NCBI GenBank assembly: GCA_019359505.1
Contig: JAHHHD010000009.1
Coordinates: 1-64,000, forward strand
Source: Drouetiella hepatica Uher 2000/2452
Lineage (GTDB): Bacteria; Cyanobacteriota; Cyanobacteriia; Elainellales; Elainellaceae
Direction of reading: 5' to 3'
DNA length: 64,000 nucleotides
The notes beneath the pieces were generated by a model. The model worked only from the letters and a program-made list of their open reading frames with translations, ran no database searches and was not told the DNA's origin. Shown piece by piece: positions 705-14,957 of this stretch; position 1 is the first letter of the stretch, and each line of letters opens with the position of its first letter. Position numbers and translations under genes: made by a program.

Positions 705-1086
705 GATCTATTCTCCTTGTTGTTTTGGGTTCGCTTGCAGAGATCTCGCTTGCAAAAGCAAGACGAGAAGGAAGCCCAAAAACATGGCTACTCACGATCG
801 ATTAACAAGTAGCGCCAAGGAGTGTAACCAGAAAGCTACACTAACTTAAGCCCTACGGACTGCCTGTACGGTCTGTAAGGTTAGAGGTATGTTGTAGGTG
901 GCACTACTTCATACCTCGCCAGAGGTTTTTGGGTGACTTAAGGCTGCTGGCGCAGGAATACGAGAAAGCAACCTTAGCGGATGACAATATAGGAAAGAAG
1001 GGGCGATCGTCAAGCTCTTTTTTGCACAAGTTTGTTTGTGTTCTGAGGATAGGGAATTTGGGGGGCGATCGGCTGTGTCAAACCCC
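705..1086. other. Intergenic stretch, nothing recognisable
   Basis: The 382 bases between the 79-aa gene and the end of the integrase relic hold only short overlapping open frames with no family resemblance. The 5' region of the 79-aa gene (promoter, upstream of 704) must lie here, but no convincing -35/-10 pair stands out. Confidence 0.5.
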
Positions 1087-2058
1087 CTACGCATCCAGCG
1101 GACTGCGAACCCCTTTTCCGCCACGATTCACGACATAGGTGTAGATCATCGTCGTTTTCACGTCTTTGTAACCTAAAAGCTCTTGAATCGTGCGAATGTC
1201 GTAGCCTGCTTCCAGCAAGTGTGTGGCAAAACTGTGGCGAAAAGTATGGCATCCTGCTTTGAAATTTGTGTGGCTCTAACTGCCTGCTTGACCGCTTTTT
1301 GGACACCGCTTTCATGCAAGTGATGACGACACATCAAATCACTACGCGGATCTTTGACAATTTGACTCGATGGAAACACAAACTGCCAAATCCATTCACG
1401 ATTGGCATTAGGATACTTGCGATCGATCGCATACGGCAGATTCACGGCTCCAAACCCTCGGCTCAAGTCCCGCTGATGCTGCCGTTTTACACTCGCTGAT
1501 CTCTCAACTCCACTGCGACCATCGATGGCAGCATCGTCACACGGCTCTTGCTCCCTTTACCATCTCTGACTATGATTTGCTGTTGAGCAAAATCAATGTC
1601 TTTAACAAATCAATGTCTTTAACTCGTAAGCGCAAACCTTCAATCAAGCGAAGCCCGCTCCCGTAAAGCAGCTTCACGACCAATTGGTAAATGCCGTCAC
1701 ACTGCTGGATCACGGCGATCGCCTCCTGTTTGGTCAACACGGTTGGCACATACTGAGGTCGTTTGGCGCGAACGGCATCGATGCCCAACATTTCCAGATT
1801 GAGTACTTCCCGATAGAGAAACAGCAAGGCACTGAGAGCTTGATTTTGGGTCGAAGCCGCGACCTGCCCCTCGACGGCTAGATGGGTGAGAAAGACTTCA
1901 ATTTCAGCCTTGCCCATCTCCTTGGGATGGCGCTTATTGTGGAACAGGATATAGCGGCGAATCCACTGCACATAGGTTTCTTCTGTGCGGTAGGCATAGT
2001 GCTTGAGACGAATGGTATCCCGCACCTGATCCAGCAATTTCTTAGGAGGTGACTGCAT
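1087..2058 (-). pseudogene. intI: Integron integrase (IntI-type tyrosine recombinase), frameshifted relic
   Basis: Read across three frames, the strand encodes a near-full integron integrase. The first segment (1570-2058) starts [20 protein letters not shown] and ends near [18 protein letters not shown], containing the first catalytic Arg region. The middle (about 1260-1480) has LMCRHHLHESGVQKAVKQAV, the extra patch that separates IntI from other tyrosine recombinases. The last segment (1087-1260) has [34 protein letters not shown] and the terminal SPLDA, holding the HxxR box and the nucleophile Tyr. At least three frame breaks exist: a 17-base tandem duplication at 1590-1623, an indel near 1490 and another near 1255. 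The enzyme must be inactive. An attC-like site and toxin-antitoxin cassettes lie on its start side, as expected of an integron platform. Confidence 0.85.
1590..1623. repeat. 17-base tandem duplication breaking intI
   Basis: The unit AAATCAATGTCTTTAAC occurs twice in tandem (1590-1606, 1607-1623). Removing one copy restores the frame to [18 protein letters not shown], the expected integrase sequence. The duplication is therefore one inactivating mutation, adding 17 bases. Confidence 0.85.
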
Positions 2059-11475: not shown

Positions 11476-12447
11476 CTAAATCACCAAATACTCTCGTACC
11501 CTTTCTCGATGGCGACGTAACTGAGCCAGAGCCTTCATCTCAATCTGGCGCACCCGTTCGCGACTCAGCCCCAAATGCTCACCAATCTCCTGCAAACTCT
11601 GCGCCGTACTGTTGTTTAAGCCAAAGCGCAAGGTCATAACTTCCTGCTGTCGAGGAGTTAGCTCCGCCAAGAGCCGCTGCACATCATCTCGAAGCGCCTC
11701 ACCTGTTGTATACTCTTCTGGCGAAGGCTTATCGTCCGTCAGCAGATCCACAAATTCCGTGTCCTGATTTTGCCCAACTCGCAGATCTAGAGAAATCGGC
11801 TGTCGAGCCAGCAGTAAAAACTTCCTCACTTCGGCAGGTTCTAACTCCAGCGCCTCAGCAATTTCTGCCGGAGTGGCATTTCGCCCCAACTGATGAGAAA
11901 TTTGCCTTTGCGTCGTCCTAATCTTGGTCAATCTTTCATAGACATGACTAGGCAGACGAATAGTGCGTCCCTGCTGAGCGATCGCCCGTGACATCGCCTG
12001 ACGAATCCACCAGTACACATAGGTAGATAACTTATAGCCCTGCATCGGGTCAAACTTTTCTACGCCGCGCCCCAAGCCCAAAGTTCCTTCCTGAATCAAA
12101 TCGAGAAACTCCACGCCCCGCCGCTGATATTTTTTGGCAACGGAAACCACCAGGCGCAAATTTGCCTCAATCATCTTGTGCTTTGCTCGCTGCCCCTTCA
12201 CCAGAGCAGCATTTAAGTCATTAAGGTTAACGTCAGCTTGCTGCGCCCACTCTTCAGGACTTGGCTCGTGACCCAATCTCTCAGCTAAGACTGCTTTGTT
12301 GAGGTACAGAGCCATCATCTGCTGAACTTGCTTACCATAAACAACTTCCTGTTCCTTGGTGAGCAAAGGAATCCGACCAATTTCTAAGAGATAAGTCCGA
12401 ATGGTGTCGGTGCCGAAATTAGGCTGAGCAGGATGGATGGGAGTCAA
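11476..12447 (-). CDS. Group 2 sigma-70 family RNA polymerase sigma factor
   Basis: The 323-aa protein begins MTPIHPAQPNFGTDTIRTYL, with region 1.2 (DTIRTYLLEIGRIPLLTKEQ), region 2 (ANLRLVVSVAKKYQRRGVEF and YKLSTYVYWWIRQAMSRAIA for -10 recognition), region 3 and region 4.2 (LSRERVRQIEMKALAQLRRH). It lacks region 1.1, as expected for non-essential group 2 factors (SigB to SigE class) that redirect RNA polymerase in stress, darkness or nutrient change. The LGLGRGVEKFDP segment has Gly where the primary factor has Ile or Glu. Which group 2 subtype it is cannot be settled by eye. It converges with the channel gene (24 bases between stops). Confidence 0.93.
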   Translation of the reverse strand: MTPIHPAQPNFGTDTIRTYLLEIGRIPLLTKEQEVVYGKQVQQMMALYLNKAVLAERLGHEPSPEEWAQQADVNLNDLNAALVKGQRAKHKMIEANLRLVVSVAKKYQRRGVEFLDLIQEGTLGLGRGVEKFDPMQGYKLSTYVYWWIRQAMSRAIAQQGRTIRLPSHVYERLTKIRTTQRQISHQLGRNATPAEIAEALELEPAEVRKFLLLARQPISLDLRVGQNQDTEFVDLLTDDKPSPEEYTTGEALRDDVQRLLAELTPRQQEVMTLRFGLNNSTAQSLQEIGEHLGLSRERVRQIEMKALAQLRRHRERVREYLVI

Positions 12448-12663: not shown

Positions 12664-13875
12664 TCAGGGCTTATGGTCAAGCTGAATAGCCTGTTCTAAC
12701 GCCGTTTTTTCTTTTGCCCTCTGAATATAGGGCTGTAGCTTAGCTGCATCCCAGCCCGTCAAGATCAGCAGGCTGTCTGGCTCTATACCTCTCATCAACA
12801 TATCTACACACCAAGTTTGCTGAGCTTGCTCAGGCGTGGGGAGATGTCCAGTGGGAGTTCGCTGCTCTGTCGTTATCTCTTGCCAGCGCTGCCTTATCTC
12901 GCTTTCCAGAAGCGGTGTTCCGGCTGCATTGAGGAACAGGGCGGCTTGGGTATCTTTGCGGCTTTTGAGCCACTGAGTTAGAGGATTGCGGAGATAAGAG
13001 CCATAGCGCCTGCCCATAATCCATTGATTAATAGGAACTTGACGAGAAGAAGAGTCATAGGGGACTTGTACAATCTGCTGATGGGCATCGCTGATATGAT
13101 GCGATCGCTCCAGCCGCACCAAGTCTCCAGGGCTGAGTCCGGCACCAAACAGCAGATAAATCAGAGCGTAATCCTGTAATCCCGATTTTTTGGCGCGTTG
13201 CAATATCGTGTGAACCAGAGTCGCAGGCAAATCATTGATGGGAGCAGGCTGAACGGCTGACGGCACCGACAAAATATCTCCTGGCAAAAACAGCCTCACC
13301 AGATGCTCCAAAAAATCATCTCGATCGCGCCAAAGTTCGTGAAACTCGCTAGTAAACTCAATCACGGCATAGCCCAACAGCAGGCTATTTAATAAACTTG
13401 CCAACTTTGCGGCAGATACGGGAGTCTGTTCACCCTGAAGCTGCCCACGGTCAATCACAGCCGCAAAATATTGTGCAACATAGCCATTGGCTTGAGTCAA
13501 GCCTTGCCCCAACGCCTGACGATTTTCTAAGGGATATTGCCCCGCCTCACCTATGACCGATCGCACCACTTCAGGTACTTTCTCTAGGGTTTGCAGAGCG
13601 GCGATCGCATAATCTCTCAGTGCTTGGTCAAGACTGCTACTACATACCGCTTGCTGAACCAGTGCCTGCCCTAGATTCATAAAAACGGCTACCTCTTTAA
13701 TCACTGCCAGCAGCAGACCATGCTTGTTGCCAAAGTGACGAAACAAAGTCACCTCGTTCACTTCAGCCGCTTCTGCAATCTGCCGAGTTGTTGTTTCAGT
13801 GATGCCTTGAGCGGCAAATAACTCAAGCGCTGCGTCAATTAAGCGCTGCCGAGTTGAATGGCGGGAGTCAGACAT
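12664..13875 (-). CDS. TetR/AcrR-family regulator fused to a degenerate tyrosine-recombinase-like domain
   Basis: The 403-aa protein has a classic TetR N terminus (RQRLIDAALELFAAQGITET, then RQIAEAAEVNEVTLFRHFGN, helix-turn-helix) and a ligand-type domain to about residue 200. Usual TetR proteins stop there. Residues 215-400 look like an integrase catalytic fold: YALIYLLFGAGLSPGDLVRL mirrors the first-Arg region with Ser248 in place of Arg, and LILTGWDAAKLQPYIQRAKE mirrors the H/W...Tyr end (W375, Y383). The HxxR box is not recognisable, so recombinase activity is unlikely; a DNA-binding or oligomerising role is inferred. Two palindromes upstream suit autoregulation, and a desaturase gene diverges from it. 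Confidence 0.8.
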   Translation of the reverse strand: MSDSRHSTRQRLIDAALELFAAQGITETTTRQIAEAAEVNEVTLFRHFGNKHGLLLAVIKEVAVFMNLGQALVQQAVCSSSLDQALRDYAIAALQTLEKVPEVVRSVIGEAGQYPLENRQALGQGLTQANGYVAQYFAAVIDRGQLQGEQTPVSAAKLASLLNSLLLGYAVIEFTSEFHELWRDRDDFLEHLVRLFLPGDILSVPSAVQPAPINDLPATLVHTILQRAKKSGLQDYALIYLLFGAGLSPGDLVRLERSHHISDAHQQIVQVPYDSSSRQVPINQWIMGRRYGSYLRNPLTQWLKSRKDTQAALFLNAAGTPLLESEIRQRWQEITTEQRTPTGHLPTPEQAQQTWCVDMLMRGIEPDSLLILTGWDAAKLQPYIQRAKEKTALEQAIQLDHKP

Positions 13876-13883
13876 AGGAGAAA

Positions 13884-13900
13884 TGTAAGTGACACTTGCA
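13884..13900. promoter_or_regulatory. Palindromic operator copy 1 (candidate TetR site)
   Basis: TGTAAGTGACACTTGCA is a near-perfect 17-base palindrome, 8 bases before the TetR-type start codon. It matches the site at 13930-13946 at 14 of 17 positions (shared TGTAAGT and CTTGCA). Direct sequence observation; its use by the adjacent regulator is inferred. Confidence 0.7.
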
Positions 13901-13929
13901 AAATCAAAGGGAGGTTGCTAGGATATAAA

Positions 13930-13946
13930 TGTAAGTAGCGCTTGCA
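13930..13946. promoter_or_regulatory. Palindromic operator copy 2 (candidate TetR site)
   Basis: TGTAAGTAGCGCTTGCA repeats the motif of 13884-13900 with 46 bases between centres, roughly four to five helical turns. Both lie in the 233-base gap shared with the divergent desaturase, so one regulator could control both genes. Confidence 0.7.
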
Positions 13947-14108
13947 TCTTCTTATCCACTATAGCCAAATAGCCAAAGCAAAAGCCAAAGCAAAACAGCC
14001 AAAGCAAAACTATATAGAACCAGCTATCGAATTCAATCAGTCCCTTACAGCGTCCTCTGCAAAAATCTAAAATTCAAAATTCAAAACCCGCAACCCACAA
14101 CTCCAATC

Positions 14109-14957
14109 ATGACCCCCAATTCTATTAAAACGGCTTCCCAAGGGCAGCAAATGCCTCTGGACTGGACAAACGTCTTTTTCTTTGGAACAATCCACGCCCT
14201 GGCTCTGCTGGCTCCCTGGTTCTTCTCCTGGTCGGCATTAGGCGTGATGCTGTTCCTCCACTGGCTGTTGGGCAGTATCGGCATTTGCTTGGGATACCAT
14301 CGGCTGCTGACTCACCGAAGTTTTCAGGTGCCTAAGCTGTTGGAATATGCGATCGCCACATTGGGCGCTCTAGCGCTGCAAGGGGGCCCCATTTTCTGGG
14401 TTGCCGGACATCGGCTGCACCACATGCACACCGAAGACAACGAAAAAGATCCCTACTCTGCCCGTCGAGGATTTTGGTGGAGTCACATGCTGTGGCTGTT
14501 TTATCCCCGTGCCGAATTTTTTGAATACGAATCCTACAAGAAATTTGCGCCTGATCTGACTCGCGACCCTTTCTATCGCTGGTTAAATCGCAACTTTCTG
14601 TTGCTGCAAGTTCCTCTAGGAATAGGGCTATTTTTGGTGGGCGGCTGGTCGTTTGTGATCTATGGCATGTTCTTGAGACTGGTTTTGCTATGGCACAGCA
14701 CTTGGCTAATCAATTCTGCAAGCCATATTACTGGATATCGCACCTTTGCCTCTGATGACAATGCGCGAAATCTCTGGTGGGCGGCAATTCTCACCTACGG
14801 CGAGGGCTGGCACAACAATCACCATGCCTATCCCAATGTGGCAAAAGCAGGCTTGCAGTGGTGGGAAATTGATATGACTTGGTGGGCAATACAAGCCCTG
14901 CGATCGCTTGGTCTAGCCAAAAAAGTAATAATGCCTCCGCAATCGCTGGAGAGCTGA
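14109..14957 (+). CDS. desC: Delta-9-type acyl-lipid/acyl-CoA fatty acid desaturase
   Basis: Introduces the first cis double bond into acyl chains of membrane lipids, using ferredoxin as electron donor in cyanobacteria. The 282-aa integral membrane protein has the three histidine boxes of the family: HRLLTH (64-69), HRLHHMH (101-107) and HNNHH near residue 237, holding the di-iron centre. Four membrane helices surround them (for example NVFFFGTIHALALLAPWFFS). Length is typical for DesC. It diverges from the TetR-fusion gene, and the two palindromes in the shared upstream region suggest control by that regulator. The protein ends with a short hydrophilic tail. Regiospecificity is inferred from family resemblance. 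Confidence 0.93.
   Translation: MTPNSIKTASQGQQMPLDWTNVFFFGTIHALALLAPWFFSWSALGVMLFLHWLLGSIGICLGYHRLLTHRSFQVPKLLEYAIATLGALALQGGPIFWVAGHRLHHMHTEDNEKDPYSARRGFWWSHMLWLFYPRAEFFEYESYKKFAPDLTRDPFYRWLNRNFLLLQVPLGIGLFLVGGWSFVIYGMFLRLVLLWHSTWLINSASHITGYRTFASDDNARNLWWAAILTYGEGWHNNHHAYPNVAKAGLQWWEIDMTWWAIQALRSLGLAKKVIMPPQSLES

Follow-up and report, generated by a model that had tools for sequence, protein, structure and literature searches.

A TetR-family regulator fused to a predicted catalytically dead tyrosine-recombinase domain adjoins a DesC-type desaturase gene in cyanobacteria

Introduction

TetR-family regulators of fatty-acid desaturation are known from several bacteria. DesT of Pseudomonas and MadR of mycobacteria respond to acyl-CoAs, and FabR of E. 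coli is similar (PMC8872791). The Delta9 desaturases of cyanobacteria comprise DesC1 (sn-1), DesC2 (sn-2) and DesC3 (PMC4390868), and we found no description in the openly licensed literature of how the second cyanobacterial DesC-type desaturase is controlled.

Dead tyrosine recombinases have been described as parts of regulators from eukaryotes, i.e. animals and fungi. In the crypton-derived DUF3504 proteins (KCTD1b, ZMYM2-4, QRICH1 and WOC), a recombinase domain that has lost its catalytic residues is appended to transcription regulators, and DNA binding or protein contacts have been proposed as its roles (PMC3212892). Similarly, the DNA-binding domain of Ndc10 from the yeast kinetochore is reported to be related to tyrosine recombinases and to have a role other than recombination (Perriches and Singleton 2012, as cited in PMC6077249).

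Here, we describe what appears to be a bacterial case, in which a TetR regulator carries a recombinase domain predicted to be dead. Many cyanobacteria have a second DesC-type desaturase, which helps to determine the composition of their membranes, and the protein is a candidate for its regulator. The preliminary description of this DNA knew of no characterised protein with this arrangement; likewise, we found no earlier description of a TetR-recombinase fusion or of a cyanobacterial TetR desaturase regulator in the openly licensed literature.

The fusion resembles DesT, FabR and MadR as a putative TetR repressor of a desaturase gene for which an acyl-derived ligand is plausible, but these proteins have no recombinase domain and the fusion is not an orthologue of FabR (23.7 bits with the PRK11202 (FabR) model versus a cut-off of 151). 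The DUF3504 proteins are animal proteins that derive from cryptons and have lost the tyrosine, whereas the fusion is bacterial and Xer/integrase-like, mostly keeps the tyrosine, has TetR as its partner and has a single known target. In Pfam scans of the protein and of 49 homologue tails, the tail matched PF00589 and there was no match to the DUF3504 profile. Ndc10 is eukaryotic and binds centromeres; what it would share with the tail is an evolutionary tie to tyrosine recombinases together with a role outside recombination. Finally, XerA, XerC, XerD and other simple tyrosine recombinases have the catalytic-domain fold in common with the tail, which lacks their core-binding domain and catalytic pentad. 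The fusion is thus a regulator of a familiar kind in which the dead-enzyme module is conserved and new.

Results

Domain layout and fold

The features of the locus within the window, i.e. the whole stretch of 64,000 nucleotides of Drouetiella hepatica DNA that was analysed, are listed in Table 1. A single ORF with an ATG start encodes both a TetR regulator and a tyrosine-recombinase catalytic domain, and all three Pfam matches (TetR_N, TetR_C_7 and Phage_integrase) exceed their curated cut-offs. Assignment to the TetR family is supported by the TetR_N domain, the TetR-type C-terminal domain and palindromic operators by a usually divergent gene; the one annotated example is named “TetR/AcrR family transcriptional regulator” in RefSeq. 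The N-terminal core-binding domain of tyrosine recombinases is absent, and the TetR part and the linker stand in its place. This linker varies from 9 to 79 residues among 76 aligned homologues and is predicted to be disordered.

Table 1. Features of the regulator-desaturase locus, in window coordinates
Feature	Position	Strand	Evidence
TetR-tyrosine recombinase (predicted dead) fusion protein, 403 aa	12664..13875	-	ORF; Pfam/NCBIfam profiles; 76 unique full-length homologues aligned
TetR_N helix-turn-helix DNA-binding domain, residues 12-58	13702..13842	-	PF00440, E 3.5e-16
TetR_C_7 (AefR-like) dimer/ligand domain, residues 91-197	13285..13605	-	PF14246, 27 bits, cut-off 22
Flexible linker, residues 200-215	13231..13278	-	pLDDT <50 at 202-208
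Tyrosine-recombinase domain, predicted catalytically dead, residues 215-403	12667..13233	-	PF00589; AF2 pLDDT 96; Foldseek; column counts
Arg-I position, S248	13132-13134	-	column counts
His-II position, E349	12829-12831	-	column counts
Arg-II position, Q352	12820-12822	-	column counts
His/Trp-III position, W375	12751-12753	-	column counts
Tyr position, Y383	12727-12729	-	column counts
op2, putative operator, TGCAAGTGTCACTTACA in regulator sense	13884..13900	.	palindrome, conserved in homologues; centre 17 bp from regulator ATG
op1, putative operator, TGCAAGCGCTACTTACA in regulator sense, desaturase side	13930..13946	.	palindrome; 46 bp from op2
TAGCA element (consensus TAACA), probably part of regulator promoter	13916..13920	-	fixed 15 bp from op2; also in genus g25 without recombinase domain
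Putative desaturase -10 hexamer, CACTAT here, TACTGT in most relatives	13957..13962	+	position relative to op1; weak consensus
DesC-type acyl-lipid fatty-acid desaturase, inferred target	14109..14957	+ (divergent)	PF00487; SCD1-like by sequence; adjoins regulator in all loci examined

The Phage_integrase profile matches residues 221-383 (33.4 bits, cut-off 27.1; 35.7 bits with the tail alone), and 44 of 49 tails match PF00589 individually. The XerC/XerD profiles of NCBIfam match the same stretch, far under their equivalog cut-offs. An AlphaFold2 model of the tail built with 49 homologues reached a pLDDT of 96 and a pTM of 0.91. In a Foldseek search of this model against the PDB, XerA (5hxy) was nearest by structure (E 6.6e-9, TM 0.72), and all of the 50 matches listed are tyrosine recombinases (XerA, Tn1549 Int, XerH, lambda Int and Cre). 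A profile built from the tails likewise found XerA-like 4a8e (E 1.1e-10) and XerD (E 2.7e-4). The C-terminal helix (residues 377-400) is long and conserved. Thus, the suggestion in the preliminary description that a standard TetR protein is followed by a domain with an integrase catalytic fold holds for both parts.

Active-site residues

The state of the active site was read from column counts in the 76 unique full-length homologues. Arg-I is lost in 73 of them (Ser in 62, Thr in 6; Arg in 3), the catalytic Lys of the beta2-beta3 hairpin is likewise lost in 73 and present in only three, and Arg-II is lost in 66 (Gln in 58, with Arg in 10). The His-II column holds Glu in 39 and Ala in 17 homologues, and none joins His-II with the remaining catalytic set; the His/Trp-III column holds Trp in 33 and Cys in 24. 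The tyrosine is kept in 70 homologues and replaced by Phe in four. Arg-I, Arg-II and Tyr occur together in two members, neither of which has His-II in addition, and the full R-K-H-R-H/W set with Tyr occurs in none of the 76. The residues originally noted in the window protein, i.e. a replaced first Arg (Ser248), a lost HxxR box (E349 and Q352) and a kept terminal Tyr (Tyr383), therefore stand. Because the active site is incomplete, the established chemistry of the family implies that the tail should be unable to act as a normal recombinase, and by its residues it is a derivative of the tyrosine recombinases rather than an active member.

Distribution and selection

The fusion is conserved across many cyanobacterial families, with homologues of 45-84% identity. 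In a sample of 386 genomes from across the phylum, the tail is strongly matched (204-333 bits) in 41, each of which has a single such match, and every one of these falls in a frame of 399-496 codons. The scores then drop to 40 bits, at which level the matches are ordinary integrases. Because these weaker matches are ordinary integrases, the tail family exists solely as a TetR fusion in these data. The TetR part was found in 44 genomes and is fused to the tail in 41 of these. Seemingly split or truncated tails in two fragmented assemblies (G030 and G017) were not counted as loss events. Over 56 close pairs, the median dN/dS was 0.04 for the TetR part and 0.13 for the tail, and the latter value argues for purifying selection rather than decay.

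Occurrence beyond cyanobacteria was checked by one scan of a genome collection, in plasmid records and in phage and viral collections. There was no match in 50,697 phage records, and a phage origin was rejected; viral contigs gave one weak, partial integrase-like match.

The neighbouring desaturase

A gene for the same fatty-acid desaturase adjoins the regulator in all of the 49 loci examined first and in all later loci, and the two genes are divergent except in one genome (G048), in which they are in tandem. The genome studied here has two desaturase paralogues elsewhere (52% and 47% identity), and where the regulator is missing from a genome, the paralogue of roughly 50% identity is mostly the only one present. 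We infer that the desaturase in the window is a putative DesC2.

Close copies of this desaturase in two other genomes (L108 in G393; L106 and L107 in G053), 71-72% identical, have neither the regulator nor the operators; these copies appear to be unregulated or differently regulated.

Directly downstream of the fusion gene lies a gene for a sigma-70 family factor (11476-12447, minus strand). It is a neighbour in only three loci, and a functional link was rejected.

Operators

The two palindromes that had been noticed upstream of the regulator were confirmed. They follow the pattern TGYAAGYNNNRCTTRCA, with the form TGCAAGT-N3-ACTTGCA and few deviations, and this pattern occurs in the 6.4-Mb genome only at op1 and op2; the reversed control pattern did not occur in the same search. 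Among 20 genomes, there were one to three occurrences in each of the 14 with the regulator and none in the six without it. This scarcity suggests that the regulator is nearly single-target.

The operator pair is present in 78 of 83 loci and in 73 of the 77 fused loci. In 69 of the 78, op1 and op2 are 46, 47 or 48 bp apart (outliers 42-60 and 85 bp). The spacing does not keep to the helical repeat; at 46-48 bp, two bound dimers would be about half a turn out of phase. Linker length was rejected as a predictor of the spacing, the correlation being negative (Spearman -0.36) and probably a lineage effect. Op1 most often lies 6-11 bp upstream of the TACTGT-like -10 element of the desaturase and overlaps the -35/spacer region, a position that points to repression. 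In many loci, op2 immediately precedes the start codon of the regulator, a location that suggests autoregulation. Based on these findings, the fusion is probably a dedicated, autoregulated repressor of the desaturase.

Lone operator-like palindromes away from the desaturase locus, i.e. possible extra targets, were seen at G332:C1:320989, G332:C1:1391682, G385:C1:507992, G176:C1:5761793, G393:C1:348653 and G039:C1:1386247.

Natural contrasts

Three deviating arrangements bear on the role of the tail. In genus g25, all six genomes have a TetR protein of 225-272 aa without the recombinase tail by the same desaturase and exactly one palindrome, at the op2 position, with no op1. This genus is placed near the base of the TetR tree, and its long branch and unsupported neighbour fit gain and loss of the tail alike. 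In G048, two perfect palindromes 48 bp apart are still present before the desaturase, while the regulator promoter is no longer at the pair. Together, g25 and G048 suggest that the two operators function as one unit and that this unit goes with the fusion. Genus g9 (G011 and, less certainly because of a contig end, G027) branches within the clade of fused proteins; its regulator no longer has the tail and ends in a Pro-rich stretch, but both operators have been kept at 47 bp. Thus, an operator pair can outlast the tail for some time at least, and the association of the domain with op1 rests on one phylogenetic contrast.

Discussion

Based on these data, the recombinase fold, the loss of the active site, the selection on the tail, the target and the operators are well supported. 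The same holds for the initial proposal that a recombinase was domesticated as a regulatory module: the fold, an active site degenerate throughout 76 homologues, the conserved fusion and purifying selection all speak for it, as do the lack of a stand-alone tail among the genomes sampled and the fact that the same target gene, with matching operators, is always linked to the fusion.

We suggest a model in which the fusion serves as a local, dedicated repressor that acts on both the DesC-type desaturase gene and its own, with the recombinase domains linking dimers at the two operators; taken as a whole, we hold this best explanation to be as probable as all else combined. In this model, dimers of the TetR part would bind the two palindromes, op1 over the -35/spacer region of the desaturase promoter and op2 within the leader of the regulator gene. 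Flexible linkers would carry the dead recombinase domains, and the subunit contacts with which recombinases assemble on paired sites would join the dimers at op1 and op2 in one cooperative complex that shuts the region. By analogy with the known TetR regulators of desaturation, the TetR pocket may sense an acyl derivative, and such a fatty-acid-derived ligand would probably release the complex. Under the linking model, the flexible linkers would explain why changes in spacing are tolerated. More tentatively, and with doubt prevailing slightly over belief, a recombinase domain that could no longer catalyse but still assembled on paired sites may have been fused to a TetR repressor, so that membrane desaturation came under a cooperative switch with two operators; the second operator would then have been gained along with the domain.

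The bridging of two operators, which the preliminary description had put forward, is indirectly supported. The fixed 46-48 bp pair, the single operator where the domain is absent (g25) and the pair kept in the rearranged G048 locus agree with it, whereas g9 has lost the domain and retains both operators. This last observation fits an alternative in which the domain senses or docks another protein or a small molecule, e.g. a lipid or redox signal, and is unrelated to the operator pair. Many invariant residues of the tail are outside the former active site, and the cleft has been emptied of catalytic residues, as would suit such a role; however, the single operator in g25 and the persistence of the pair in G048 are then left unexplained, and we consider this alternative unlikely.

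The fold is a DNA-binding fold, and ten basic residues are conserved in the tail (K229, K230, R257, R278, R290, K304, R306, K307, R362 and R386). Hence the domain could bind DNA in addition to the TetR part, holding on to the 29 bp that separate the operators or to their flanks, and could thereby add affinity or bend DNA, as Ndc10 does at centromeres. However, the mean net charge of the tail is only +1.6 (pI 8.2), as compared with +6 to +11 (pI 9.5-10) in the catalytic domains of four intact recombinases. Moreover, the sole conserved element between the operators, TAACA, keeps its 15-bp distance from op2 in the domain-less g25 and is missing between the operators in the domain-bearing G048, and it was therefore rejected as a binding site of the recombinase domain. 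A second DNA-binding domain is accordingly an improbable reading. Because the charge of the tail is low and no element between the operators tracks its presence, we favour a role of the tail in protein-protein contacts that connect the dimers at op1 and op2, although we regard this step itself as an even call.

That the protein is a still-active site-specific recombinase targeted by its TetR part is very hard to believe: the tyrosine is kept in most homologues, but Arg-I, Lys and His-II are gone, Arg-II is mostly gone, no member has the full set and four have Phe for Tyr. We dismiss almost entirely a chance read-through into a decayed integrase pseudogene or an annotation artefact, which the degenerate active site might evoke but the open frame of similar length in 76 homologues, the dN/dS of about 0.13 and the presence in 41 of 386 genomes refute.

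Because the target and the operators are defined and there are natural contrasts in which the domain is absent, has been lost or sits in a rearranged locus, the function of this dead domain is directly testable.

Further observations concern variants and relatives of the fusion. In G045 (L093, 1434-3026), a homologue has a 530-codon frame in which the recombinase domain seems to hold a large insertion, and the operators are altered. Among the recombinases nearest to the tail in the phylum sample (L097 in G039, L096 in G379) is an integrase of 336-337 aa from g25, in which the TetR protein is without the domain; the similarity extends into the C-terminal helix. The window itself also contains a broken tyrosine-recombinase gene that looks integron-integrase-like (1010-2058, minus strand), interrupted by a stop codon and a shift of frame, with PF00589 pieces at 1135-1257 and 1561-1737. 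Finally, the desaturase-regulator pair is also present on plasmid pP742403 of Gloeothece citriformis PCC 7424 (NC_011730.1, 3964-6245; PCC7424_RS28730, WP_012599342.1). This plasmid of 29 kb is typed as mobilizable and carries the pair near carotenoid-protein and light-harvesting-like genes, a location that suggests horizontal transfer of the module.
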